In this document: positions 40,434-53,579 of the stretch, one piece after another
Layout of the letters: each line of letters starts with the position of its first letter
Numbering within the stretch: the stretch's first letter is position 1
The notes under the pieces: generated by a model
Databases searched by the model: none
What the model was told of the DNA's origin: nothing
The model's input: only the letters and a program-made list of their open reading frames with translations
Made by a program: the position numbers and the translations under genes
Source: Ureibacillus manganicus DSM 26584
GTDB taxonomy: Bacteria; Bacillota; Bacilli; Bacillales_A; Planococcaceae
Reading direction: 5' to 3'
Assembly (NCBI RefSeq): GCF_000772945.1
Contig: NZ_JPVN01000007.1
Location: 1 to 64,000, forward strand
DNA: 64,000 nucleotides

Positions 40434-41798
40434 ATGGCATTACCAGTAAAGAAAAATGATCGAAGAACAGTTTATATAGAAGACTTAACCCATGACGGAA
40501 ATGGTGTAGCAAAGATTGATGGCTATCCGTTATTTATACAAGGAGCACTTCCACAGGAGACAGCTGAAATTCACGTGTTGAAGACGCTAAAGAATTATGG
40601 ATTTGCAAAAATTGTAGATATCATCGAACCATCACCTGATCGAGTGAAAGCACCTTGTATTTATTTTGGAAAATGTGGCGGATGTCAGCTGCAACATCTT
40701 TCATATGAAGGACAATTGAAGTGGAAGGAAAACATGGTAAAGAACGTCATGAAACGAATTGGCAAGATTGACGCACCTGTACTTCCAGTAAAAGGAATGC
40801 AAGACCCATGGAACTATCGTAATAAATCACAAATACCTTTTAGTATGACGGAAACAGGTCCAATTGCAGGATTCTATAAATCAAAAACCCATGACATTGT
40901 TGATATGGAACGTTGTTTAATTCAAGTAAGTGAAGCGGACGCAATTATGGCGACCCTAAAGAAAGAATTGAAGGAAATTGGATTACAACCATACAACGAA
41001 GAATCTCACCAAGGGATGCTTCGTCATGTTGTGGTTCGTAAAGCGCGTGCAACAGGAGAGGTAATGATTGTATTAGTTACAAATAAACATAAATTCCCTC
41101 AGAAAGATGCAGCTATTGAAGTCGTACGTAAACTTGTTCCGAATGTGACATCGATTGTACAAAACATAAACATAGAAAAAACAAACGTTATTCTTGGCAA
41201 TGAAACTTATACACTTTGGGGTAAAGATACGATTGAAGATACAATTGGTGGCGTACGTTTTGAAATATCTGCTCGCTCATTCTATCAAGTAAACCCGGTA
41301 CAAACAGAAGTGTTGTACAAGCAGGCATTAGATTATGCACAGTTAAAAGGTGATGAAACTGTCATTGATGCCTACTGTGGTATCGGGACGATTTCGTTAT
41401 TTTTAGCAGAGAAAGCGAAGCAAGTAATGGGTGTTGAAATCGTAGAGCAAGCTATTGAGGATGCAAAACGTAATGCTGAGTTAAATGGGTTTATGAATAC
41501 GTATTTCGAAGCAGGTCCAGCAGAAGAAGTGATTCCTCGTTGGTATTCGGATGGTAAAGAGGCTGATGTGTTAGTAGTGGACCCACCACGTAAAGGCTGC
41601 GATGAGGCGTTACTCCAAACAATCATTGAGCACAAACCAAAGAGAGTGGTCTATGTTTCTTGTAACCCTGCTACACTTGCGCGGGACTTACGCATTTTAG
41701 AAGACGGTGGATACAAAACAATGGAGATCCAGCCGGTGGATATGTTCCCGCAGACGACACATTGTGAAGCCGTCGCATGGTTGGAGTTAATTAAGTAA
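40434..41798 (+). CDS. rlmCD: 23S rRNA (uracil-5)-methyltransferase, RlmCD/RumA family
   Basis: 454 residues. An N-terminal TRAM domain precedes the 4Fe-4S ligands Cys75, Cys81, Cys84 and Cys161. The SAM-binding region is DAYCGIGTISLFLAE. The catalytic nucleophile is Cys410 in YVSCNPAT, and Glu445 in THCEAVAWLELIK corresponds to the catalytic base of E. coli RumA. In B. subtilis the homologue methylates U747 and U1939. The gene is intact. Its last 10-15 codons are repeated, in degenerate form, three times in the next 12 kb, as if it were an insertion target. GGAGG precedes the ATG. Confidence 0.95.
   Translation: MALPVKKNDRRTVYIEDLTHDGNGVAKIDGYPLFIQGALPQETAEIHVLKTLKNYGFAKIVDIIEPSPDRVKAPCIYFGKCGGCQLQHLSYEGQLKWKENMVKNVMKRIGKIDAPVLPVKGMQDPWNYRNKSQIPFSMTETGPIAGFYKSKTHDIVDMERCLIQVSEADAIMATLKKELKEIGLQPYNEESHQGMLRHVVVRKARATGEVMIVLVTNKHKFPQKDAAIEVVRKLVPNVTSIVQNINIEKTNVILGNETYTLWGKDTIEDTIGGVRFEISARSFYQVNPVQTEVLYKQALDYAQLKGDETVIDAYCGIGTISLFLAEKAKQVMGVEIVEQAIEDAKRNAELNGFMNTYFEAGPAEEVIPRWYSDGKEADVLVVDPPRKGCDEALLQTIIEHKPKRVVYVSCNPATLARDLRILEDGGYKTMEIQPVDMFPQTTHCEAVAWLELIK
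41757..41786 (+). repeat. rlmCD 3'-end repeat, copy 0 (native)
   Basis: The 30 bases starting ACACATTGTGAAGC within the rlmCD 3' end encode THCEAVAWLE. Related copies occur at 44550-44579 (27 of 30 identical), 46514-46543 (26 of 30) and 53496-53525 (23 of 30), all in the same orientation. It is a candidate attL-type core. Confidence 0.8.
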
Positions 41799-41841
41799 TA
41801 CCAAAATAAACATTTTCGATTTCGCTTCCAGATTTAATCAT

Positions 41842-41877
41842 TCTCGGGTTTTCCTGAATAGGAACCCGAGATTTTTT
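41842..41877 (+). terminator. Terminator after rlmCD
   Basis: TCTCGGGTT (41842-41850) pairs with AACCCGAGA (41863-41871), followed by six T residues. The remainder up to 42077 shows no gene. Confidence 0.92.
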
Positions 41878-42077
41878 CGTTCTGGTATTGGTAATCAGAT
41901 AGGATTTATTATTTTATTCTCTATCCCTGCAATTTTATCTAAGTTCATCGATTCTGGTGTTGGGGCTAAAAACGGATTAAAAATTAAACTGAAACTGAAC
42001 TCCGAAGATGTACATTTTTGAAGTGACTAATATTCAGATTCAGTTTACAAAAGGAATAACGTCCTAATATATATTTT

Positions 42078-42842
42078 TTAGCTATTTTCTTTATTTTTTA
42101 CTAAAAAATAGGCAGTGATCCAGGAAGTAACCGGAATAACGAGAGTTACTCCAATTGCTGCACATAAGATTGTAATCAATTCTGCACTAAAAACCTTTGA
42201 ATTCACTATTTCACTTATTGAATAAGATAAATCTTTAAACCATATTAGCAATGCCAAATAGCCACCAAAGAAGGCGAAGAACAGTGTATTTGTACTTGTT
42301 CCTAATATATCTCTTCCAATACTTAACCCAAAACGGAATAATTCATTACGACCAATATGTGGATGATGATACTGCATCTCGCGCATAGGTGATGAAATGG
42401 CAATTGCTGCATCCGTAATAGCTCCAATTGTACTCATGATAATTACTGATACGGCAATTTTCACGAAATCAATTCCAATGTTAAATGAAAACGCCCCAAG
42501 CTCTTCTATTTCCTCTTCACCAAAACCTTGTATCATTGCCTTGTTCGTTATGACCGTTATAAACAAAATCAGGATTACAGTCGTAATAATGGTTGAAAGA
42601 AAGGCAGTCTTTGTTTTTCCGTTAATTTCATTAATATAAAAAAGATTGATACAACTGATCACTACACATGCAGCCAATGTCAACATGACAGGATTAATAT
42701 GTGGATCGTGCATAAAAAAGACAGTTGTCATGATGACGGCAAAGTTTAAAAATATTGCAAAAAAAGACCTTATCCCTTTTCTTCCTCCTATAAGGGACAT
42801 TAATAGGAACAATATCCCTGACAATAACAATAATACATTCAT
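42078..42842 (-). CDS. YibE/F-family membrane protein, short partner
   Basis: 254 residues with about seven membrane helices. The block STIGAITDAAIAISSPMREM followed by GRDILGTSTNTLFFAFFGGYLALLI is the YibE/F signature. The family has no settled function; it is often encoded as a pair, as here. It overlaps the upstream partner by 4 bp. The two genes are the only cargo in the first segment after rlmCD and run against its direction. Confidence 0.85.
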   Translation of the reverse strand: MNVLLLLSGILFLLMSLIGGRKGIRSFFAIFLNFAVIMTTVFFMHDPHINPVMLTLAACVVISCINLFYINEINGKTKTAFLSTIITTVILILFITVITNKAMIQGFGEEEIEELGAFSFNIGIDFVKIAVSVIIMSTIGAITDAAIAISSPMREMQYHHPHIGRNELFRFGLSIGRDILGTSTNTLFFAFFGGYLALLIWFKDLSYSISEIVNSKVFSAELITILCAAIGVTLVIPVTSWITAYFLVKNKENS

Positions 42843-43978
42843 AGTCTTGCCTTCTTTCTATTTACGAAAAATATCGTTGTATAGAGGCCTATTGGTATGG
42901 TTATCACAATACCAATCCCTCCAGCCAGTGCTCTGGCCATTTCCAGCGAAAGGTTTACTGAAATCGTATAACCGAAAGGAGATGCGTTCTTAAAATAGAG
43001 AAGGAGCGTCGGTATCGAACCACTTACATAGGCAAAAAACAAAATATTTGTCATGGTGCCCATAATATCTTTTCCAATTTCCATTCCTGATTTAATAAGT
43101 GCTTGTACTGAAATATTGTTATCTTTCTCATATAATCCAAAAATGGAAGAAGACATGGTAATAGCTACATCCATCACAGCACCTAAAGAACCAATGAATA
43201 AACCGGCCATAAATACCGTCTTATATGGTCGAGTAATAAATTGTAATTCCTCATATCGAAGTCCATTTTCGCCTGTTACCAAAAGAGCTAGGTATGTAAT
43301 TAATAGTGAAATGAAGGTTCCTAGTATGGTCGCAATAATAGCTGCATATGTTTTTTCATTTAAACCATTAACGAGTAACAAAGAAACGACTGTAAATAAA
43401 ATAATACATATACCGCAAATCCATAACAAACTTTGATCTGACTGATGAACATAAATATCCAACGCGAATGATAACAGAGTAGTAGTAAATACTAAACTAA
43501 TAACTGATAATAGCCCCTGCTTTTTTCCTACAAGCAACAATACAAAGACAAATACCCATGCAATAATAACCAAATATTTATCACGTTTGACACCTTGAAT
43601 TGTCCCCGTTCGTTCCTTACCTTCATCAATATTCTGGTCGATTGAAACTAGTAACTCATTACCAACTTCAAACTTATTATCAAGGGCTTTGGATTGTGAA
43701 AATTCATTTATCAAATGAATCTCCATTCCTTTTTCTTCTCCATTTTTCAATTCGGCGATGATATGTTGCGTATATAATACATCTTCATTGTTAATAAGAT
43801 CCTCTACCTTGGTTACATCCTCTATGTTTGTTTTTATGACCTCAGCAATTGGGCGGTCATAAAAGGAATAGTTATTATGAACAAAAAAAACGGAGCCTAT
43901 AAAACAACATATGAGTATGGTGTAAAAAATTTTATGTTTGTAAGTCATTTTTTTATATAGGCTTCTAACAGAATTCAT
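42839..43978 (-). CDS. YibE/F-family membrane protein, long partner
   Basis: 379 residues. One N-terminal helix is followed by an extracytoplasmic region of about 110 residues rich in charged residues, then about seven helices with GSLGAVMDVAITMSSSI and GKDIMGTMTNILFFAYVSG, the same signature as its neighbour. It is probably a membrane complex with the short partner (inference from overlap and family habit). The start at 43978 follows AAAGGAGG by seven bases; the TTG two codons earlier is too close. Confidence 0.85.
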   Translation of the reverse strand: MNSVRSLYKKMTYKHKIFYTILICCFIGSVFFVHNNYSFYDRPIAEVIKTNIEDVTKVEDLINNEDVLYTQHIIAELKNGEEKGMEIHLINEFSQSKALDNKFEVGNELLVSIDQNIDEGKERTGTIQGVKRDKYLVIIAWVFVFVLLLVGKKQGLLSVISLVFTTTLLSFALDIYVHQSDQSLLWICGICIILFTVVSLLLVNGLNEKTYAAIIATILGTFISLLITYLALLVTGENGLRYEELQFITRPYKTVFMAGLFIGSLGAVMDVAITMSSSIFGLYEKDNNISVQALIKSGMEIGKDIMGTMTNILFFAYVSGSIPTLLLYFKNASPFGYTISVNLSLEMARALAGGIGIVITIPIGLYTTIFFVNRKKARL

Positions 43979-44164
43979 TAACAAACCTCCTTTAAAAGTA
44001 ATTGCTATGTAATTTGCGCATTTTGAGTTGTAGAATACTCTACTTCAGCGTGTGTAAATATTTGTGTGTACTAATGAAAATAAGGAGACTGAGTTTATAA
44101 TAAAAACCTGCAAAAAGTGTTAACCGAACCATTGTATCAAAATTAAATATGGTGCTCAAAATGT

Positions 44165-44199
44165 AGGGCCTTCGAAAGAATTGAGGCCCTGATTTTTTT
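44165..44199 (+). terminator. Orphan terminator with no upstream plus-strand gene
   Basis: AGGGCCTT pairs with GAGGCCCT around a 10-base loop, followed by seven T residues. The nearest plus-strand gene upstream is rlmCD, more than 2.3 kb away and already terminated. It may mark a lost gene. Confidence 0.75.
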
Positions 44200-44512
44200 C
44201 GTTGGTTTAAATAGTTGTATGACACAAAATTACAAAAATTTATGCTCAATCATTGGCACGAGGAAGGGGAAATTTGTATGGAATGAAATTTTAATGAACT
44301 ATTAACGATTACGAAGGCGATACAAAAAAACGTTACTAAAAAGATTAAACATCTTTTTCCGTAGATAAAGCTGTTTTAGAAATCACTTGCTTATACAAGA
44401 TGCAAGGTACAATAATTTTCAATTAAATATTGCATTTTAGAAAGCAACATTTTGAGATGAATAAGAAAAATTTGCCTCGACTCTATTGAATTGATTCGAT
44501 GTCTATATAACT

Positions 44513-44594
44513 AAACCCACCAGCAACCTTGTGTTGCCACATACAATCGACACATTGTGAAGCGGTCGCGTGGTTGGAAAGAAATATAATCTAA
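44513..44594 (+). repeat. Degenerate rlmCD 3' end, copy 1
   Basis: AAACCCACCAGCAAC... at 44513 leads to a core at 44550-44579 with 27 of 30 bases identical to the rlmCD end. Read in the rlmCD frame it gives STHCEAVAWLERNII and stops at 44592-44594. A terminator follows 19 bases later. The 35 bases before the core are shared with copies 2 and 3 and only weakly resemble rlmCD. It is a candidate attR-type end of segment 1. Confidence 0.8.
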
Positions 44595-44612
44595 ATGTAA
44601 CAGTGAGAAGAG

Positions 44613-44643
44613 AGCCTTTCCCTTTGGGAGAGGCTATTATCTT
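44613..44643 (+). terminator. Hairpin terminator after rlmCD-tail copy 1
   Basis: AGCCTTTCCC pairs with GGGAGAGGCT (10 bp, one G-U) around a 3-base loop. The trailing T-run is weak (ATTATCTTT). Confidence 0.7.
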
Positions 44644-44822
44644 TGAGTTTTATAATTAATTACTATGAACAAACATTATTAAGGTAACAGTGGTGTAAAA
44701 GTTAGACAAAGTTATCAAAATAAAAGGGATAAAAACTGGATTATCATCTACAACAAATTAATGGAGCAAACATATTCTGTGATACTAGTTATAATCATTA
44801 TGATTAAAGGAGATGGCTTTCG

Positions 44823-46385
44823 TTGGCCCGTACATCATTGGCAACAATGTTAGAGAAAGCATATAATGCTGCTCATGCAGCAATGGAGATAGAAAAAGGT
44901 AAAAATAATGTTATGACTAATCAAAACAATACTTCAAATGAAACTAAGACTAAGGATCTTTTAAAAAAAGGAAAAGAAAAACAATCCCAGGATAGAAAGG
45001 AACGTAAAAATAATCCTAAGGTAGTCATAGTGGGCGCGGGTTTAGCGGGCCTCACTTGTGCTTATCGTCTTAAACAGGAGGGCATAGATGCTACCGTTTA
45101 TGAGGCGAGTAACAGGGCAGGGGGACGCTGTTGGACAAGAAGAGGAGAATTTAAAGAATGTCAGATTGTTGAAAGAGGCGGGGAGATAATAGACACGGAT
45201 CATATAGAAATTCAAGAGCTTGCTAGAGAGCTAGGTCTAGTATTAGATGATTTAATAGAGGCAGAACCAGCGAATACAGAAACTTTTTATTATTTTAATG
45301 GAGGTCCTTATACTGTTGAAGAAGCAACAACGGATTTTTTGGAAATTTACCCCAGATTACAAGAGGATTTGGATGAAGTTGGGGAATATACTCTTTATAA
45401 CCATTATACAAAACGAGGGTTTCAGCTTGATCATATGTCCATCATCGATTATATCAATGAAATAGTTCCAGGCGGTATCCGTTCCAGGTTTGGTGAACTA
45501 TTAGCAGTAGCGTATACTGTAGAATCCGGGGCAGAAGCCTATATGCAAAGTGCGTTAAATCTACTATATTTGTTAGGGAGTGCCCCAAGAGGTTCCTTGG
45601 AAATTTTGGGAGAGTCAGATGGACGATTTAGAATAAGAGATGGTAATGATAAGCTAACTACGATTTTAGCAGAGAAACTTAGCGGCCAAATTGAGTTCAA
45701 CGCAGAACTCATAAAGATTGAACAATATAGAGAAAATCGCATAAGGCTTATCTTCCGAAACCAACAAAGAATGTGGGAAGTTTTAGCGGATAAAGTTATT
45801 ATCACCATTCCGTTTAGCATTTTAAGAAGGTTGGATTATAGAAAGGCAGGATTTAGACGCTTAAAACATATTGCTATCCAAGAGCTTGGAATGGGAGTAA
45901 ACACAAAACTTCATGTACAATTTTTCAATAGGTATTGGAACGAACTTGGGAACAATGGAGAAACATATACAGATACTGGTTATCAAGGTACGGACGAAGT
46001 TTCACGTGCTCAGCCTGGAAAATCGGGGATATTAGTTAACTATACGGGTGGAAGAACTGCAGCAAGACAGTTTGCTACAACAGATAAACAACTAGAGGCC
46101 ATTACATTAGATTTCTTGAGAAATATAGAACCTGTTTTGCCAGGTGGTATTAAGAACTGGAATTCTATTTCAAAAATTGACCACTGGCTCAGTGATCCAT
46201 GGACAAGAGGCTCCTATTCATACTTTAAGGTTGGGCAATATACTAAATTTGCCGGCATAGAGGGGGAACGCGAGGGGAATATTTTCTTTGCAGGAGAGCA
46301 TACATCCATTGATTATCAAGGTTATTTAAATGGAGCTGTTGAAAGCGGAGAAAGAGCTGCTCAAGAGGTGATGGATGATTTATAA
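44823..46385 (+). CDS. FAD-dependent amine oxidase (flavin monoamine oxidase family)
   Basis: 520 residues. After a charged N-terminal extension of about 65 residues comes the dinucleotide motif VVIVGAGLAGLTCAYRL, then YEASNRAGGRCWTRR and, at the C-terminus, the FAD-binding GNIFFAGEHTSIDYQGYLNGAVESGERAA. This domain order is that of monoamine, polyamine or L-amino-acid oxidases, which release aldehyde or keto acid, ammonia and H2O2. The substrate cannot be read. The start is TTG, nine bases after AAAGGAGA. It is the only gene between two rlmCD-tail repeats, so it is probably cargo. Confidence 0.88.
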   Translation: MARTSLATMLEKAYNAAHAAMEIEKGKNNVMTNQNNTSNETKTKDLLKKGKEKQSQDRKERKNNPKVVIVGAGLAGLTCAYRLKQEGIDATVYEASNRAGGRCWTRRGEFKECQIVERGGEIIDTDHIEIQELARELGLVLDDLIEAEPANTETFYYFNGGPYTVEEATTDFLEIYPRLQEDLDEVGEYTLYNHYTKRGFQLDHMSIIDYINEIVPGGIRSRFGELLAVAYTVESGAEAYMQSALNLLYLLGSAPRGSLEILGESDGRFRIRDGNDKLTTILAEKLSGQIEFNAELIKIEQYRENRIRLIFRNQQRMWEVLADKVIITIPFSILRRLDYRKAGFRRLKHIAIQELGMGVNTKLHVQFFNRYWNELGNNGETYTDTGYQGTDEVSRAQPGKSGILVNYTGGRTAARQFATTDKQLEAITLDFLRNIEPVLPGGIKNWNSISKIDHWLSDPWTRGSYSYFKVGQYTKFAGIEGEREGNIFFAGEHTSIDYQGYLNGAVESGERAAQEVMDDL

Positions 46386-46391
46386 GATCCA

Positions 46392-46430
46392 CAAAGAAGA
46401 ACCCCCATTGTTAGTTTGGGTTTTTCTTTG
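46392..46430 (+). terminator. Terminator after the amine oxidase
   Basis: CAAAGAAGAACCC pairs with GGGTTTTTCTTTG (one mismatch) around a 13-base loop. The T residues are inside the 3' arm. Confidence 0.65.
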
Positions 46431-46479
46431 AAGTATGACTCAGTTAATATGAATTTGAATTGTTGACAATTATTAAAAT

Positions 46480-46555
46480 AAACCCATCAGCAACTTGTTG
46501 CCACATACACTCTACACATTGTGAAGCGATCGCATGGCTTGAGTTATCTGAATAA
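46480..46555 (+). repeat. Degenerate rlmCD 3' end, copy 2
   Basis: AAACCCATCAGCAACTTG at 46480 resembles copy 1 upstream of its core. The core at 46514-46543 has 26 of 30 bases identical to rlmCD. In frame it reads STHCEAIAWLELSE and stops at 46553-46555. A strong terminator follows 10 bases later. Candidate right end of segment 2. Confidence 0.8.
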
Positions 46556-46564
46556 ATTTAAATG

Positions 46565-46614
46565 GCTGTACCGAAAAAAACGATTTTGTTTGGATTTTTT
46601 CGGTACAGCTTTTT
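46565..46614 (+). terminator. Strong terminator after rlmCD-tail copy 2
   Basis: GCTGTACCGAAAAAA (46565-46579) pairs perfectly with its complement at 46595-46609, followed by five T residues. The rest to 46699 shows no gene. Confidence 0.92.
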
Positions 46615-46699
46615 CTTTTGCTTTTATAAATCGTGAAAACCTTTTTGATCATGCAGAAAAATATGGTCACAATGGCATTGGATAAGCTATAGTGACCCT

Positions 46700-47575
46700 T
46701 TATACATTTTGAATCAGCTCTATAAAATTTTGGGCAGCTTTGGACAAGCTATGATCTTTGAGCCATATTAATCCGACTGATCCAGTCAAATCGGTTGTGC
46801 CTGATATTCGATAGGCATTTATCGGATATCCCTGAAATCGGTGAAGCAGGGTTTCTGGAACAATTGAAGCAGCAAAGTCAGCTGTAACTAGATCCAACAG
46901 AAGACTAATATCAGAACACTCCCCAACAATAGTAGGTTGTAGTTTGATTCGTGAAAAAGCTTCCAAAATCAGATAATGTACACCTAATCCTTCAGTACTT
47001 GGAAAAAGGAGAGGATACGGTTGAATTTCAGTAAGTGATATTTCTTCATTAAATGATGGATGATCCTTAGATGTAATGAAATAAAATGGCTCATTGCATA
47101 AATGGAGTACAGAAAAATCGTCCAACGGCAGCGGCAAACGGATAATTGCTAATTCAATCATCCGGTCCCTGACTAATTGACAAAGATGCGAGGATTCATT
47201 CTGTTGAATTTTATACGTAATATTCGGGTATTTTTTTTGAAAATGCTTAAACACTTTAGGCAAACCATTGACTGAAAAGGTGTTAACTCCGATTGTAAGC
47301 TTCCCGTTTAAGCCTCTTCCTACTTCCATTACTTCTGATTTTGTTTCTTCCATCAATTGAGTTATTTCCAATGCATTTTTGTATAGCGTACTGCCTGCCT
47401 CTGTTACCTCCAAATATTTTCCGCTTCGCTCGACTAGTTTTGAACCGAGCTCTTTTTCCATCGCTTGCAATTGCTGGCTTAATGGGGGCTGGGACATATG
47501 AAGTCTTTTTGCGGCAGCAGAAATCTTTCTTTCTTCCACAATCGCAATGAAATAGCGCAGTTGCCGAATATCCAT
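46700..47575 (-). CDS. LysR-family transcriptional regulator
   Basis: 291 residues starting MDIRQLRYFIAIVEERKISAAAKRLHMSQPPLSQQL, a classic LysR winged helix. An effector-binding domain covers about 90-291. The start at 47575 has AAAGG nine bases upstream, and GGAAAGGATG overlaps the earlier ATG. It is divergent from the ankyrin lipoprotein and the two deaminase genes, so these are likely targets, with a purine- or pyrimidine-like ligand as one possibility (inference). Confidence 0.9.
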   Translation of the reverse strand: MDIRQLRYFIAIVEERKISAAAKRLHMSQPPLSQQLQAMEKELGSKLVERSGKYLEVTEAGSTLYKNALEITQLMEETKSEVMEVGRGLNGKLTIGVNTFSVNGLPKVFKHFQKKYPNITYKIQQNESSHLCQLVRDRMIELAIIRLPLPLDDFSVLHLCNEPFYFITSKDHPSFNEEISLTEIQPYPLLFPSTEGLGVHYLILEAFSRIKLQPTIVGECSDISLLLDLVTADFAASIVPETLLHRFQGYPINAYRISGTTDLTGSVGLIWLKDHSLSKAAQNFIELIQNV

Positions 47576-47685
47576 TTTGAACATCCTTTCCAATGTATAT
47601 GAAAAACATAAGTATAGATAATTTTTTTAATATTTTTAATATAATTACCCCCATGATAACATTTATATAGGAGGTGCAGAACAGT

Positions 47686-48390
47686 ATGAAGCTGAACGGA
47701 ATTATTACAAGCTTAATTGTAGTTTTGCTTACTGCATGCAGCGCATCGCCAGGCAATGAGAAAAGTTCACCTGTACTAGAAGAAAAGGAGGAATCCCCTG
47801 TGGAACAACAGCTAATTTCTGCAGCAGCACGAGGAGATATAAAAGCCGTTTTAGCATTACTAGAAGACGGGGCGGATATTAATGCAACGGATCATTACGG
47901 AAATACAGCTGTAATGGCTGCAACGCAAAAAAACAATGTAGACACAGTTAAGGTTCTTATCGGACAAGGAGCAGATATAAATATCCGCAATAACAATATG
48001 GATAATGTATTGTTATATGCCGGTGCAGAAGGTTTGCTAGAAATTGTGAAAATTGCTATACAAGCAGGTGCCGATACAACAATTACAAATCGTTTTGGCG
48101 GAACTGCGCTTATCCCGGCTTCAGATCGAGGTCATGTGGATATTGTGCAGGAACTTTTAACTAACTCTGACATAGACGTGGATCACATTAATCACTTGCA
48201 TTGGACCGCACTGCTGGAAGCGGTCACTTTAGGAGATGGAGGGGGAAACTACCAAAAAATTGTACAATTATTGGTTGATCATGATGCTGATGTTAGCATT
48301 GGTGATAGAGATGGTGTTACCCCTTTAGAACATGCAAAAAGACGCGGGTTTAAAGAAATTGAGCTAATTCTAATAAACGGAGGGGCGTAA
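47686..48390 (+). CDS. Ankyrin-repeat lipoprotein
   Basis: 234 residues. The signal peptide has lipobox LLTAC (Cys18) and a short acidic linker, followed by about five ankyrin repeats (for example GDIKAVLALLEDGADINATDHYG; NNVDTVKVLIGQGADINIRNN; GHVDIVQELLTNSDI). It would sit on the outer membrane face and bind a protein partner. AGGAGGTG precedes the ATG at 47686. It shares direction with the deaminase pair and is divergent from the LysR gene. Surface ankyrin lipoproteins are uncommon beside metabolic genes, and no function is known. Confidence 0.85.
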   Translation: MKLNGIITSLIVVLLTACSASPGNEKSSPVLEEKEESPVEQQLISAAARGDIKAVLALLEDGADINATDHYGNTAVMAATQKNNVDTVKVLIGQGADINIRNNNMDNVLLYAGAEGLLEIVKIAIQAGADTTITNRFGGTALIPASDRGHVDIVQELLTNSDIDVDHINHLHWTALLEAVTLGDGGGNYQKIVQLLVDHDADVSIGDRDGVTPLEHAKRRGFKEIELILINGGA

Positions 48391-48500
48391 TCACCCAAGT
48401 TGGGCATATACAAGGATGAGCAAATTAACAATAGGGGTTGTTCATGAATTTTTTACAGAGATATTGATAAAATGAAATTATTTAAAGGGGAGAAATACTT

Positions 48501-49748
48501 TTGACATTATTAATAAAGAATGTGCGTTTGGAATCTGGCTATTTGTATGATCAAACATTTGTCACATCTACCGAAACAAAAATTGTTGATGTTCTAATCG
48601 AAAATGGAAAGTTTGTTAAAATAGCCCCAACAATCGAAGTAGGCGGTGCGGCAGTTGTAGATGCCAAAAACCAGCTTCTCGTTCCATCGTTCAGGGAAAT
48701 GCATACACATATCGATAAAACATACTTCGGTGGCGGGTGGAAAGCACCAACTCCGGCAATAGAAGGAATTTTCACTCGTTTTAAAGAAGAAGCGATTTTA
48801 TTGCCTAAACAATTGGATGTCGCTGAAGAACGGGCACATGCAATGGTAAGGCATTATATTAAAAACGGACATACGCATATTCGCACGCATGTGAACGTTG
48901 ACCCGCAAATTGTGACGAAGCATATAGAAATAGCGAAGCGTGTTTTAGATAGTTATCAAGATCAAATCACGTATGAAATCGTTGCATTCCCACAACATGG
49001 CTTATTACGTAATGGTCATGAATTTTTAACGGTCTTTGAAGAAGCATTGCAAATGGGAGCAACACATATTGGAGGAGTAGACCCTGCTTTAGTAGATCGA
49101 GACAGCGGTGAAGTTTTAAAAACAACTTTTCATTTAGCGCAAAAATACGATTTGGCAATCGATATTCATTTGCATGAACGAAACACATTAGGGGAATTTG
49201 AAATACTGCAAATTGTGAATGAAATCGAACGGCGTTCTTTTAAAAATGAAGTAACACTTAGTCACGCATTCGCATTTGCAGACTTGCCCCAACAATCTTT
49301 AGACAATCTAATAGATCAGGTAGCTGCAAATAATGTTGGAGTGACAACAACGGTTCCAATTGGTGCAGGTCCGATTACACTCCCTGTCAAATATATGTAT
49401 GATCGGGGCGTAAAAGTTTCATTTGGACATGACAGCCTTACTGATCATTGGTCTCCTTTTGGAAGTGGTGATACGATTCAAAAATTAAATCAATTTATAC
49501 AACGTTTTGGATACATTGACGAATGGCATATTGGACAGTCATTGAAATATGCTACAGGCGGATTAACACCATTAAATGAAGCTGGTGAACAGCAATGGCC
49601 GAAAGTCGGCGATACGGCCAATGCGCTGCTTGTCGATGCAGTAAGCTCAGCGCATCTGATTGCAAGACAATGCCCTATTTCGACTGTAATTTCAAAAGGT
49701 AAAATCATTCATGAAAAAGAGATAGAGTTAAAGGGGGAATTCCGATGA
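48501..49748 (+). CDS. Cytosine deaminase-like amidohydrolase, paralogue 1
   Basis: 415 residues of the metal-dependent amidohydrolase superfamily. Metal ligands are His68 and His70 (MHTHIDKT), a His in HLHERN, HAFA, and Asp in GHDSLTDHW. The H-x-H-x-D-K-T motif is that of the CodA-type deaminase group acting on cyclic amidines and N-heterocycles. The start is TTG, eight bases after AAGGGGAG. The stop overlaps the next paralogue (ATGA), so the two probably act on the same or successive substrates. The substrate is not determined. Confidence 0.85.
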   Translation: MTLLIKNVRLESGYLYDQTFVTSTETKIVDVLIENGKFVKIAPTIEVGGAAVVDAKNQLLVPSFREMHTHIDKTYFGGGWKAPTPAIEGIFTRFKEEAILLPKQLDVAEERAHAMVRHYIKNGHTHIRTHVNVDPQIVTKHIEIAKRVLDSYQDQITYEIVAFPQHGLLRNGHEFLTVFEEALQMGATHIGGVDPALVDRDSGEVLKTTFHLAQKYDLAIDIHLHERNTLGEFEILQIVNEIERRSFKNEVTLSHAFAFADLPQQSLDNLIDQVAANNVGVTTTVPIGAGPITLPVKYMYDRGVKVSFGHDSLTDHWSPFGSGDTIQKLNQFIQRFGYIDEWHIGQSLKYATGGLTPLNEAGEQQWPKVGDTANALLVDAVSSAHLIARQCPISTVISKGKIIHEKEIELKGEFR

Positions 49749-50968
49749 TTACATGGCTGCGAAATGTTCGGCTAGAAGTTGGCGAAACAATAAATGAAGA
49801 TGGCAGCATCCAAACCAAAACCGATTTGTTTCATATTCAAGTTGCAAAAGAAGGAGTCATCCAAGCGATTATCCCTGCAACTGAAAATATCACTGATGTA
49901 GATGCTGTTAATATGGAAGGAAAATTAGCGCTTCCTCCATTTAAAGAAATGCATAACCATTTGGATAAAACGTATCTCTCTTTAGGATGGAGGGCTTGTC
50001 GTCCTGTAAAGAATTTATCCGAGAGATTGGCTCTTGAAGCAGCCGAGCTGGAGGAACTTGCAGAAACAGTGGAACAAAGGGCATCAGCCATGATTGAATT
50101 GCACTTGGAAAATGGTGTGAATCATATCCGGACACATGTCAATATTGACCCTTTTATTAAATTGAAAAATTTAGAAGGCGTTAAAAAAGCACTGAAAACC
50201 TATGAGCAATATTTAACTTATGAAATTGTGGCTTTTCCTCAACACGGCATGCTGGCTCATGAAGAAATGCCAAGTTTATTAAGGCAAGCATTGGAAGCAG
50301 GTGCAACAATCTTAGGGGCGCTTGATCCGGCAGGTATTGACAAAAGTATTGAAAAATCATTGCAAATTACGATGAATATAGCCAAGGAGTATGGTGTGGA
50401 TGTCGACATGCATCTTCATGACAGAGGACAAGTAGGCTTCTATACGATGGACAAATGGCTGGATATGACGAAAGAACAAGAATATAAAGGATCCACTTCT
50501 TTTAGTCATGCATTTGGTTTAAGTCAGATGTCGCCACATATGCAAAAACAATTTGCAAAAAAATTAAGCGAGCATGATGTGGAAATTATGTCCACCATAC
50601 CTATTTCTGTAAACTCTCAGCTTATTCCAATTGATATTATGAGAGCGGAAGGTGTTAAAGTGGCTTTAGGTTGTGACGGTTTTTATGATTCCTGGAGCCC
50701 TTATTTTTCTGGTGACATTTTGGAAAAGGTGCACAATTTTTGTAACTATACAGGGAAGTCGAGCGAACGTTCATTACGCCAAAGTTTAAGTTTAATTACT
50801 CAAGGAATAACACCATTGAATGGTAAAGGTGAACAAGTGTGGCCTATGGTTGGAGATGAGGCGAGTTTTGTATTTGTGGATGCCAGCTGCAGCGCGGAAA
50901 CAGTTGCAAGACTACCTAAAAATAGACAGCTGTTGAATAAAGGGAAGATATACAACTCAAAAAAATAG
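49745..50968 (+). CDS. Cytosine deaminase-like amidohydrolase, paralogue 2
   Basis: 407 residues, clearly related to the upstream gene (shared RTHVN-DP, YEIVAFPQHG, SHAFG and WSP-F-SGD blocks). Metal ligands are His70 and His72 in MHNHLDKT, with HLHDRG and Asp in GCDGFYDSW. The Cys in place of His before the catalytic Asp (GCDG versus GHDS) could alter specificity. It is likely a duplicate that diverged, perhaps forming a hetero-oligomer (inference). No terminator was recognised after it. Confidence 0.85.
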   Translation: MITWLRNVRLEVGETINEDGSIQTKTDLFHIQVAKEGVIQAIIPATENITDVDAVNMEGKLALPPFKEMHNHLDKTYLSLGWRACRPVKNLSERLALEAAELEELAETVEQRASAMIELHLENGVNHIRTHVNIDPFIKLKNLEGVKKALKTYEQYLTYEIVAFPQHGMLAHEEMPSLLRQALEAGATILGALDPAGIDKSIEKSLQITMNIAKEYGVDVDMHLHDRGQVGFYTMDKWLDMTKEQEYKGSTSFSHAFGLSQMSPHMQKQFAKKLSEHDVEIMSTIPISVNSQLIPIDIMRAEGVKVALGCDGFYDSWSPYFSGDILEKVHNFCNYTGKSSERSLRQSLSLITQGITPLNGKGEQVWPMVGDEASFVFVDASCSAETVARLPKNRQLLNKGKIYNSKK

Positions 50969-51003
50969 ATTCAAGCAATAATGATTACCTAATTACATTT
51001 ATA

Positions 51004-51288
51004 ATGTATGACACATTTTGTCTTATCGAGAAATGGATAAAAGACCGATACTCCACAGCACTTGAAATCCTTGCAGAAGATACTTTAGCAATCTATACAA
51101 AATCCTATATGTTTTCACATAAACAGTACCCCGTAATTGTTAGACGTAAATCTAGCATTTATGGGTTTTTTTATGAGATTTACTATTGTAAGAAACTATT
51201 CGATGTGTCTATCGTTATTAATATTATCTTGACAGAAACTCAAATAAGTAATAGTATAGACCACCTAGAAAAAACTATTTCACTATAA
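51004..51288 (+). CDS. Unrecognised 94-residue ORF
   Basis: The frame encodes a mixed sequence (MYDTFCLIEKWIKDRYSTAL...) with a moderately hydrophobic stretch near residue 70. No ribosome site is present before the ATG, and no family is recognised. It could be a decayed remnant in the accessory segment or a chance frame; codon content looks protein-like in its first half. Confidence 0.3.
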   Translation: MYDTFCLIEKWIKDRYSTALEILAEDTLAIYTKSYMFSHKQYPVIVRRKSSIYGFFYEIYYCKKLFDVSIVINIILTETQISNSIDHLEKTISL

Positions 51289-51373
51289 TATTATTTTGTT
51301 ATTTTAATAGTTCTAATTCGAACTTAATATAAATCTCGATTTTTAGTTTAACTTATAAAAGGAAGGTGTGAAA

Positions 51374-53326
51374 ATGGGAAATTTAGTATATCGAAAAGAT
51401 AATCTATTAAACAAATTTTTAGGAGTATACTTTTTAGCTGTTTTGATGTTATGGGTTAAAACGTATATCACTCAATTAACACAATTTGATCTAGGTGTAG
51501 AAGGATTCCTTCAACAATTCCTTTTATTAATAAATCCAATAGGATCGGCCATGCTATTTCTAGGATTTTCACTTTTATTTAAAGGAAAGAGGAAATATAC
51601 ATCGTTAGTTGTAGTTTACACTCTTATGTCCATTCTTTTATATGCGAATGTTGTTTACTACCGATTTTTTAATGATTTCATTACGTTACCAACCTTATTT
51701 CAAACACAGAATTTTGGAGATTTAGGCGGAAGTATTCTTTCTTTATTGAAACCATACGATATTTTATTCTTTGTGGATGTATTTGTATTGATTTATCTAC
51801 GATTTTCGAAAAAAATACAAAAAAATACAAGTGAGTTTCGACGCAAGAAAGCAATCTTGGTTATTGCTTTCGCATTAGTAGTATCGGTTATTAATTTAGG
51901 CCTCGCTGAAGCAGATCGTCCACAATTATTAACTCGAGGTTTTGATCGAAACTATATTGTGAAATATTTAGGAATGTATAACTATTCCATTTACGATTCA
52001 GTTGAAACGATGAAGGCCTCATCACAGAGAGCTTTGGCGGATAGCGATGATATTACAGAAGTTATTAACTATACGAAAGCGAACTATGCTGAACCCAATT
52101 CGGAATATTTTGGTGCAGCAAAGGGAATGAACGTCATCTATTTACATTTGGAATCATTCCAAAACTTTATTATCAACTATAAATTAAATGGCGAAGAAGT
52201 AACACCATTTTTAAATTCATTAACAAAAGATTCAAATACATTGTACTTTGATAATTTCTTCCATCAAACAGCCCAAGGTAAAACTTCGGATGCAGAGTTT
52301 ATGCTTGAAAATTCTTTATTTGGTTTACCACAAGGGTCTGCTTTTATTACTAAGGGGCAAAATGAGTATCAATCAGCTCCAGCAATATTAAAAGATAATG
52401 GGTATTCATCTGCGGTATTCCATGGTAACAGCGGAAGCTTCTGGAATCGAAATGAAATTTATAAATCATTCGGTTATGATCATTTCTTTGATGCGAATTA
52501 TTATGATACTAGATCTCCAGTAGATATGGCTGAATATGGTTTGTTGGATAAACCATTCTTTGAACAATCATCAAATCTTTTAAACACTTTACCGCAACCA
52601 TTCTATACGAAATTTATTACAGTGGGTAACCATTATCCATATAATCTAAATCAAAACTTAGCCACAATTGGTAAAGGTAGCACCGGTGATGCGAGCGTGG
52701 ATAATTATTTCCAAACGGCACGTTATGCGGATGAAGCAATTGAACAGTTCTTTACTCAATTAAAAGAATCAGGTTTATACGATAATAGTATGATTATCCT
52801 TTATGGTGACCATTATGGTATTTCAGAAAATCATAATAAAGCGATGGAAAAAGTTATTGGAAAAGAAATCACACCATATGAAAGTGCAAATTTACAACGG
52901 GTACCATTATTTATACATGTTCCTGGAATGAAAGGCGGAGTAAATCATTCTTACGGCGGTCAAGTAGACCTACTTCCAACCTTATTACACCTACTTGGAA
53001 TCGATTCACAAAAGTTCGTTCAATTTGGTACAGATTTATTGTCAGAAGAGCATAATGAACTTGTAACATTAAGAAATGGCGATTTTGTCAGTCCTACGAT
53101 TTCTTCAATAAATGAAAAGTTTTATGATAATAAAACAGGGTTACTATTAGAAGATAGTCAATTAGAATTAGCAAATAGGTTCAAAAAAGAGGTGGCTTTT
53201 AAATTACAATTATCTGATAAGGTCGTGAATGGGGACTTATTGAGATTCTATACGCCAACAGGATTTACACCAGTTGATCCTTCTCAGTACAATTACAACA
53301 AAAATGCAAATATAAAATCTAAATAA
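51374..53326 (+). CDS. Lipoteichoic acid synthase family, sulfatase type
   Basis: 650 residues. Five membrane helices cover about 13-175, then comes an extracellular sulfatase-fold domain. Catalytic Thr304 (QGKTSDAEF) and metal ligands Glu260 (YLHLESF) and Asp479-His480 (LYGDHYG) match LtaS (Glu255, Thr300, Asp475-His476 in S. aureus). It polymerises glycerol-phosphate from phosphatidylglycerol or primes the chain. Which LtaS paralogue role it has cannot be told. The start at 51374 follows GGAAGG by seven bases. It lies inside the third accessory segment. Confidence 0.9.
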   Translation: MGNLVYRKDNLLNKFLGVYFLAVLMLWVKTYITQLTQFDLGVEGFLQQFLLLINPIGSAMLFLGFSLLFKGKRKYTSLVVVYTLMSILLYANVVYYRFFNDFITLPTLFQTQNFGDLGGSILSLLKPYDILFFVDVFVLIYLRFSKKIQKNTSEFRRKKAILVIAFALVVSVINLGLAEADRPQLLTRGFDRNYIVKYLGMYNYSIYDSVETMKASSQRALADSDDITEVINYTKANYAEPNSEYFGAAKGMNVIYLHLESFQNFIINYKLNGEEVTPFLNSLTKDSNTLYFDNFFHQTAQGKTSDAEFMLENSLFGLPQGSAFITKGQNEYQSAPAILKDNGYSSAVFHGNSGSFWNRNEIYKSFGYDHFFDANYYDTRSPVDMAEYGLLDKPFFEQSSNLLNTLPQPFYTKFITVGNHYPYNLNQNLATIGKGSTGDASVDNYFQTARYADEAIEQFFTQLKESGLYDNSMIILYGDHYGISENHNKAMEKVIGKEITPYESANLQRVPLFIHVPGMKGGVNHSYGGQVDLLPTLLHLLGIDSQKFVQFGTDLLSEEHNELVTLRNGDFVSPTISSINEKFYDNKTGLLLEDSQLELANRFKKEVAFKLQLSDKVVNGDLLRFYTPTGFTPVDPSQYNYNKNANIKSK

Positions 53327-53459
53327 TTGAAATTTAGTAGGTAATCCAAGAAGATGTATTTGAATTAAAATGGATATTTTTAGAAGTATGAATATCCTAA
53401 CGTTTTATTGAATTGTCTTATATATTTTAATATTAAGTTAGGAACTAAGTATATACATT

Positions 53460-53534
53460 AAACCCCACAGTACTTATATGTTGCACATACACTGTGCACG
53501 TTTTGAAGCGGTGGCCTGGTTGGAAATAGTATAA
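53460..53534 (+). repeat. Degenerate rlmCD 3' end, copy 3 (most diverged)
   Basis: AAACCCCACAGTAC at 53460 leads to a core at 53496-53525 with 23 of 30 bases identical to rlmCD. In frame it reads FEAVAWLEIV and stops at 53532-53534. A perfect terminator hairpin follows 10 bases later. It is the copy farthest from rlmCD and the most decayed, as expected for the oldest insertion boundary. The rest of 53327-53648 shows nothing else. Confidence 0.75.
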
Positions 53535-53544
53535 ATATATTAAG

Positions 53545-53579
53545 AGAACGAATTTCAAATGTTGAAATTCGTTCTTTTT
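53545..53579 (+). terminator. Terminator after rlmCD-tail copy 3
   Basis: AGAACGAATTTCAA pairs perfectly with TTGAAATTCGTTCT (14 bp) around a 3-base loop, followed by T residues. Confidence 0.92.

Follow-up and report, generated by a model that had tools for sequence, protein, structure and literature searches.

Repeat-bounded gene cassettes behind rlmCD in Ureibacillus manganicus and other Bacilli: a probable tandem array built by site-specific insertion

The DNA downstream of rlmCD in Ureibacillus manganicus DSM 26584 is probably a tandem array of integrase-less cassettes, built at the 3' end of this gene by repeated site-specific insertion. The window that we analysed comprises positions 1–64,000 of contig NZ_JPVN01000007.1 (assembly GCF_000772945.1); the contig, labelled C22, is 181 kb long, and the genome was searched as 4.05 Mb in 81 contigs. 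We compared it with 261 Planococcaceae genomes, which also made up the order-level set; genomes and loci carry G and L numbers throughout. Genome comparison shows discrete cassettes that are cut at copies of the rlmCD end and are shared and shuffled among genera, with filled and empty sites that overlap in the core of the repeat. We infer that a recombinase acts in trans.

Copies of the rlmCD end share an upstream arm

The last ten codons of rlmCD recur in the same orientation at 44550, 46514 and 53496, with 27/30, 26/30 and 23/30 identical bases. Together with the gene's own end this makes four copies, whose positions, strand and identities are exactly those of the original prediction, an earlier reading of this DNA. 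Upstream of the core, copies 2–4 have ~40 bp more in common, a stretch that rlmCD lacks and that we named arm P_A (consensus TTAAACCCACCAGCACCNATGTGTTGCCACATACACTC). Because copies 2–4 share this arm too, each is about 85 bp long. R1, a sequence-only model, was built from an alignment of 11 copies, three of them from the window. A 101-base query from the rlmCD end, run against the whole genome at E ≤ 0.001, retrieves only itself, copy 2 (E 1.3e-6) and copy 3 (E 5.3e-5); copy 4 was recovered with R1, itself built using copy 4. Genome-wide R1 E-values for copies 2–4, all of which entered the model, are 1.6e-18 or lower. The features are as follows.

40434..41798, + strand: rlmCD, the intact insertion target; open reading frame (ORF) with Pfam tRNA_U5-meth_tr and TRAM, 23S rRNA uracil methyltransferase family
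41757..41786, + strand: copy 1, core at the rlmCD 3' end, from the sequence; partial R1 match at 41748-41792
41799..44508, no strand assigned: cassette 1, YibE/F pair at 42078-42842 (-) and 42839-43984 (-); ORFs, Pfam YibE_F twice
41843..41877, + strand: terminator-like hairpin after rlmCD, within the left end of cassette 1, read from the sequence
44509..44593, + strand: copy 2, arm P_A 44509-44549 and core 44550-44579; R1 80.8 bits, genome-wide E 2.0e-22 (R1 built with copy 2)
44594..46475, + strand: cassette 2, flavin amine oxidase at 44823-46385, Pfam Amino_oxidase
46476..46556, + strand: copy 3, arm P_A 46476-46513 and core 46514-46543; R1 71.7 bits (R1 built with copy 3)
46557..51126, no strand assigned: probable cassette 3a, by Pfam LysR 46700-47593 (-), ankyrin 47674-48390 (+) and two amidohydrolases 48501-50968 (+); putative right boundary, set by where the LTA-synthase cassette begins elsewhere
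51127..53455, + strand: probable cassette 3b, LTA-synthase-like sulfatase at 51368-53326; ~80% DNA identity with L116, L174 and L176, where it is bounded by copies
53456..53538, + strand: copy 4, the last of the array, arm P_A 53456-53495 and core 53496-53525; R1 68.2 bits (R1 built with copy 4)
53545..53579, + strand: terminator-like hairpin, by eye of the type that directly follows rlmCD in L011, L015 and L016 and also follows other copies elsewhere

Each unit is flanked by direct repeats of the target gene's end, with the exception that no copy lies at 51127. Ten window proteins belong by Pfam to ordinary families (no separate search was aimed at transfer genes), and the cargo of the segments between copies is that predicted: the YibE/F pair, the amine oxidase, and the LysR, ankyrin, two-amidohydrolase and sulfatase block. 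The sulfatase is so classed by Pfam; we take it to be LTA-synthase-like. As had also been proposed, the segments are without an integrase: neither PF07508 nor PF00589 has a match on the 181-kb contig. The rlmCD product has a homologue in Ureibacillus acetophenoni with 96% identity.

Of the three segments originally proposed, the boundaries hold, and the third appears to be two cassettes, the second of which starts at 51127. DNA of the LTA-synthase-like gene matches 246/261 genomes, because this gene family is common. Matches with cassette ends occur in G040, in G041, where the match spans 51127 to the copy, and in G157, where it has this left end as well and runs into the copy. The unit is first behind rlmCD in G041, second in G040, and at 2.24 Mb between two copies in G157; it also precedes a copy in G133 and G143. 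G059 shares the left end at 51127, with no copy afterwards in the fetched stretch. Since this left end has no preceding copy in the window, units 3a and 3b appear fused by copy loss, and the copy between them was probably once present. DNA of the amine-oxidase cassette (E ≤ 1e-10) matched other genomes (6/261) over the copy itself only.

Cassettes behave as units in other genomes

R1 matches at E ≤ 0.01 (155, rlmCD ends included, three rows dropped) fall in 67 loci, two of which duplicate others. They delimit 88 inter-copy segments of 306–13,238 bp, with a median of about 2,050 bp. Many of these segments behave as units, the same cassette occurring in different genera and in different order, cut at the copies. 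In G031, a 2.1-kb cassette with a gene of the Na+/H+-antiporter family immediately follows rlmCD; G157 carries it elsewhere, with 93% similarity from the core into the next copy. A 1.2-kb cassette encoding a Dus-like tRNA-dihydrouridine synthase (L027 13972-15213) has matches covering half or more of its length at 16 other loci, not always between copies; this cassette and a DinB-family one recur in several arrays in differing order.

The original prediction called for empty or differently filled sites in relatives, and these were found: units are present or absent between relatives and are cut at the repeats, which supports serial insertion at the rlmCD 3' end. Filled and empty loci were compared where both breakpoints fall near copies; of the 36 resulting rows, 33 show an overlap in the empty locus and three a small gap; the pairs come from genomes other than that of the window. 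L176 differs from L174 by 0.58 and 2.5 kb, with overlaps of 43 and 49 bp and flanks over 1.2 kb on both sides. Flanks are shorter in the other pairs: L022 versus L023 (1.7 kb, overlap 37 bp, right flank 117 bp), L027 versus several loci (2.2 kb, overlaps 57–64 bp, right flank about 200 bp) and L010 versus L011, L015 and L016 (5.8 kb, overlaps 28–29 bp, right flank only an 82-bp terminator stretch). Insertion is at the rlmCD 3' end with restoration of its codons, as in known rlmCD/rumA elements.

A second part of the prediction, that decay of the copies rises with distance from the intact gene, fails as a general rule. In 13 rlmCD arrays that have two or more copies downstream, identity is non-increasing in four, the window included, and not in the other nine; we therefore rejected decay as an age clock.

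Two further arrangements were seen at these loci. In L114 (6429), L121 (5936) and L127 (4797; oriented coordinates), a copy is followed by a region with an ORF of 155–166 aa whose starting base is the same in all three; L024 (17593) has this region without a copy, a possible second kind of junction. In G050, intact rlmCD is followed, after 220 bp, by a 48-codon duplicate of its 3' end (L202 6323-6466).

The arm is widespread and extends beyond rlmCD

R1 matches 150/261 Planococcaceae genomes at E ≤ 1e-4, including genomes in which the rlmCD end alone matches. Arm-bearing copies, taken as matches that begin at model position 13 or lower among the 150 matches listed, occur in at least 58/261 genomes and 10/19 genera. 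Of the 26 named RlmCD loci that extend 9.9 kb or more downstream, 11 carry at least one additional R1 match; L012, one of the 11, has another arm, and L033 stands outside the 26. A class-wide draw yielded matches in 21/398 genomes at E ≤ 1e-5, seven of them outside Planococcaceae. The match includes the arm in four of these seven (G267, G390, G493 and G596, of other Bacilli families) and is the rlmCD end only in at least one, G310. Several copies in G267 combine this arm with the genome's own rlmCD-type end. There, arm-bearing copies also lie behind ORFs at L212 985-1977 and L214 573-1616, which we take to resemble YD-repeat/RHS toxin tails.

P_A is also present on plasmids, two of Priestia megaterium and one of Mesobacillus foraminis. 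It was absent from 50,697 phage records searched by blastn, and a search of viral contigs with the exact degenerate pattern only found none.

Copies away from rlmCD, single or arrayed, were found in G157, G158, G018 and G035; in G018 one lies on a separate contig of 192 kb, possibly a plasmid. Some of these arrays have at their left end a core half joined to other sequence (L115 3364; L117 617, reversed locus). In L197, a 0.25-kb unit lies behind a fragment of an rlmCD (RumA-family) paralogue, seen as a match of 171 residues. Insertion at rlmCD, the boundary site of the original prediction, thus stands, and confinement to it does not: secondary chromosomal arrays, a paralogue and plasmids also hold copies. 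Sites unrelated to rlmCD, named beforehand as a point against the proposal, are in this part real, and the units at them are still cassettes cut at repeats. On the chromosomes of G157, G158 and G151, copies among the matches listed are on the + strand below ~1.84 Mb and on the - strand above ~2.2 Mb, as if co-oriented with replication.

Proposed mechanism

P_A is joined to several right halves, namely host rlmCD-like ends, ends that resemble the left ends of serine-recombinase elements, and other sequence. Read by eye, these right halves diverge just after ACTCNACACA, which would therefore place the crossover. In the mechanism that we propose, the left end of a cassette would consist of an rlmCD-like 3' end with its terminator and would restore the gene on insertion; the body would hold one or a few ordinary genes, and the right end would be the conserved arm P_A. 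Arm and next core would meet within the bases ACACA, where strands would be exchanged. A circle carrying arm and core would recombine with the rlmCD end, repeated rounds would pile up cassettes, all in one orientation, and reversal would release them. We infer a circular intermediate and a large rlmCD-targeting serine recombinase that would act in trans or would have resided in an autonomous ancestor now lost; plasmids or other elements would transfer cassettes between hosts.

Junctions of the arm with an HVEC-type right half look palindromic, with a mean of 5.9/8 complementary positions (18 junctions) versus 2.2 for 50 HCEA-type junctions. This is suggestive, and we set it aside as proof because the sorting rule itself favours complementary letters and because the 35 'other' matches of this loose scan include chance ones.

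Serine recombinases at rlmCD

The original prediction advised looking for integrases next to the repeats, and some relatives do have serine recombinase genes at rlmCD. In 9/10 loci, a gene for a large serine recombinase (PF00239, PF07508, zinc ribbon) stands tail-to-tail with rlmCD or a paralogue. Close homologues of the R. stabekisii enzyme are present in 10/261 genomes, six directly behind rlmCD and three behind a paralogue; in the tenth, G038, neither gene lies within the fetched 40 kb. The paralogues that adjoin these recombinases have 35–37% identity to rlmCD. Three of the recombinase genes are damaged: that of G146 is split over two frames, that of G175 is interrupted and that of G250 is incomplete. 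For the elements of G146 and G163, R1-like candidate right ends were located at distances of 11.9 and 22.7 kb; by eye, their arm differs from P_A. L039 has another, distant serine recombinase at rlmCD. L012, L022, L025, L033 and L027 have decayed recombinase 3' ends adjoining rlmCD or a copy, and recombinase 3' remnants lie at arm-joined serine-recombinase-like left ends in L120, L126, L124, L209 and L210. The U. manganicus genome has six PF07508 matches, all on contigs other than C22.

Two observations concern these enzymes and their elements. The rlmCD serine-recombinase element of R. stabekisii carries GajA- and GajB-like genes of the Gabija anti-phage system (L030 18019-20692), together with a kinase-like gene and a tyrosine recombinase. 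In G154, twelve PF07508 matches stand in tandem on one strand within 28 kb (G154:C13:708679-736677).

Several findings weigh against repeated insertion by such a recombinase. PF07508 has no match in G157, G150 and G151, which hold 14, 7 and 6 R1 matches (rlmCD ends included). Within the fetched stretches, no intact recombinase lies inside a P_A-ended cassette or beside P_A. P_A was not found in the fetched 40–60 kb of G253, G211, G250, G184 and G248, and both serine-recombinase elements with located right ends (G146 and G163) use other arms; we therefore rejected P_A as the right arm of the rlmCD serine-recombinase elements in these stretches. By eye, cassette left ends resemble the 3' end of rlmCD in their own host, a likeness that could also arise by homologous recombination. 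Neither excision nor a circle was observed.

Alternative explanations

The main rival to repeated site-specific insertion is homologous recombination. After rare early insertions, cassettes would have spread and been shuffled by recombination over the ~60–150 bp common to the copies and to the rlmCD end with its terminator, leaving the arm as a fossil. The host-like left ends, seen also in G267 with its own rlmCD-type C-terminus, agree with this, as do the PF07508-free genomes G157, G150 and G151 with their copies and the genome with the 48-codon duplicate of the rlmCD end. The arm, however, is conserved although rlmCD lacks it, so that homology with rlmCD leaves the arm unexplained. It is joined at the same point to right sides unrelated to rlmCD, and copies occur at other sites and on plasmids. 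We consider this explanation of the arrays as a whole rather improbable; homologous recombination could nevertheless contribute to the shuffling.

Movement of the cassettes by a tyrosine recombinase, either the resident Xer or a mobile integrase, is unlikely. PF00589 matches occur in 8/8 genomes searched, including that of U. manganicus, and G157 has 22 of them and none of PF07508. Three copies have a tyrosine recombinase gene or fragment 0.5–1.4 kb away, but these are 3/53 copies among the matches listed in those genomes, compared at a cut-off of 3 kb with PF00589 matches above the weakest, which we did not find convincing. U. manganicus itself has three PF00589 matches, one a 63-aa fragment and none on C22, and the recombinase genes at rlmCD, both here and in PMC4701971, encode serine recombinases.

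An integron-like system, in which the repeat would be a folded single-strand site, could account for arrays in one orientation with one or few genes per cassette. The alignment of 11 copies, however, contains zero covarying pairs, fold z-scores of two copies are only -0.25 to -1.61 on both strands, and the contig has no tyrosine integrase match. Covariation and folding thus give a folded site no support, and we regard this explanation as very improbable. Lastly, chance resemblance or a static duplication of the gene end, for which one might cite cores of just 30 bp that are degenerate (as in copy 4), is refuted by the R1 E-values of copies 2–4, by the matches to copies 2 and 3 from the rlmCD sequence alone and by cassette polymorphism between species, and deserves practically no credence.

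Relation to known systems

Arrays of this kind have precedents. The closest, with very similar anatomy, are the tandem ssrA islands of Dehalococcoides. Their conserved repeat region of ~85 bp includes, upstream of the direct repeat, a motif that is missing from the target; sixteen islands carry a serine integrase on the reverse strand at attL, and 15 islands have no integration module (PMC3146451). Both systems place tandem units behind the 3' end of one gene, with a repeat of similar length and an upstream motif missing from the target. In Dehalococcoides the target is a tmRNA and all repeats lie within 100 kb, whereas the window array uses a protein gene, rlmCD (tRNA_U5-meth_tr/TRAM), and not ssrA. 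The cassettes described here, with a median of about 2 kb, also have copies at other sites and on plasmids and are shared across genera.

The same gene end is a target of larger elements. rumA receives streptococcal integrative and conjugative elements (ICEs) with a serine integrase at the junction and an exchange of C-terminal codons (PMC4701971), which bears out the analogy drawn in the original prediction. In Listeria, prophages with cadmium and antibiotic resistance genes lie between rlmCD and fosX (PMC8386393), and in pneumococci the rlmCD region is the locus of most Tn1207.1 insertion types (nine) (PMC8321556). The ICEs and prophages are large, and the ICEs have their own integrase; the window cassettes have none.

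Cis-mobilizable elements (CIMEs) keep attachment sites, have lost integration and transfer genes and grow by tandem accretion (PMC5704250). As in such arrays, repeats flank the units, presence and absence are cut at repeats, and the units lack an integrase. A decayed CIME would presumably still contain remnants of genes of ICEs or integrative mobilizable elements (IMEs), whereas the window cassettes hold ordinary genes and have an arm in common, and some cassettes reappear in other genomes as the same units. A Lysinibacillus IME uses a different site and tyrosine-type integrases (PMC13239906).

The staphylococcal cassette chromosome consists of tandem cassettes at the 3' end of rlmH, an rRNA methyltransferase gene, and is moved by serine recombinases. 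Here the target is rlmCD and not rlmH, and the cassettes carry no recombinase genes. Integrons are arrays of small, shuffled cassettes in one orientation; unlike them, the window array has no PF00589 match on its contig and no folded attC-like site was found in the copies.

Significance

Searches of the open-access literature, with most subscription journals outside its scope, showed nothing on cassette arrays like these. Systems of this general type are known; the apparently new feature is an arm common to small cassettes of ordinary genes in many genera, at other sites and on plasmids. A more far-reaching possibility, which we put forward tentatively and think less probable than not, is an integron-like cassette exchange of Bacilli that runs on serine-recombinase rules. 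P_A would then be a universal arm that marks a large pool of integrase-less cassettes of ordinary chromosomal genes, rlmCD ends would be their main dock and other sites secondary platforms, plasmids would carry copies between families, and any visiting rlmCD-type serine recombinase would load, shuffle and unload them. To our knowledge, integrons are rarely reported in Bacilli.

The ~85-bp repeat provides a marker for mapping small moving cassettes of ordinary genes across Bacilli. If cassettes are moved in trans, rlmCD-targeting elements, among them Listeria prophages with resistance genes (PMC8386393) and one element here with Gabija defence genes, could shuffle ordinary host genes too. The copies are also natural sites for studying the tolerance of serine recombinases for hybrid attachment sites.

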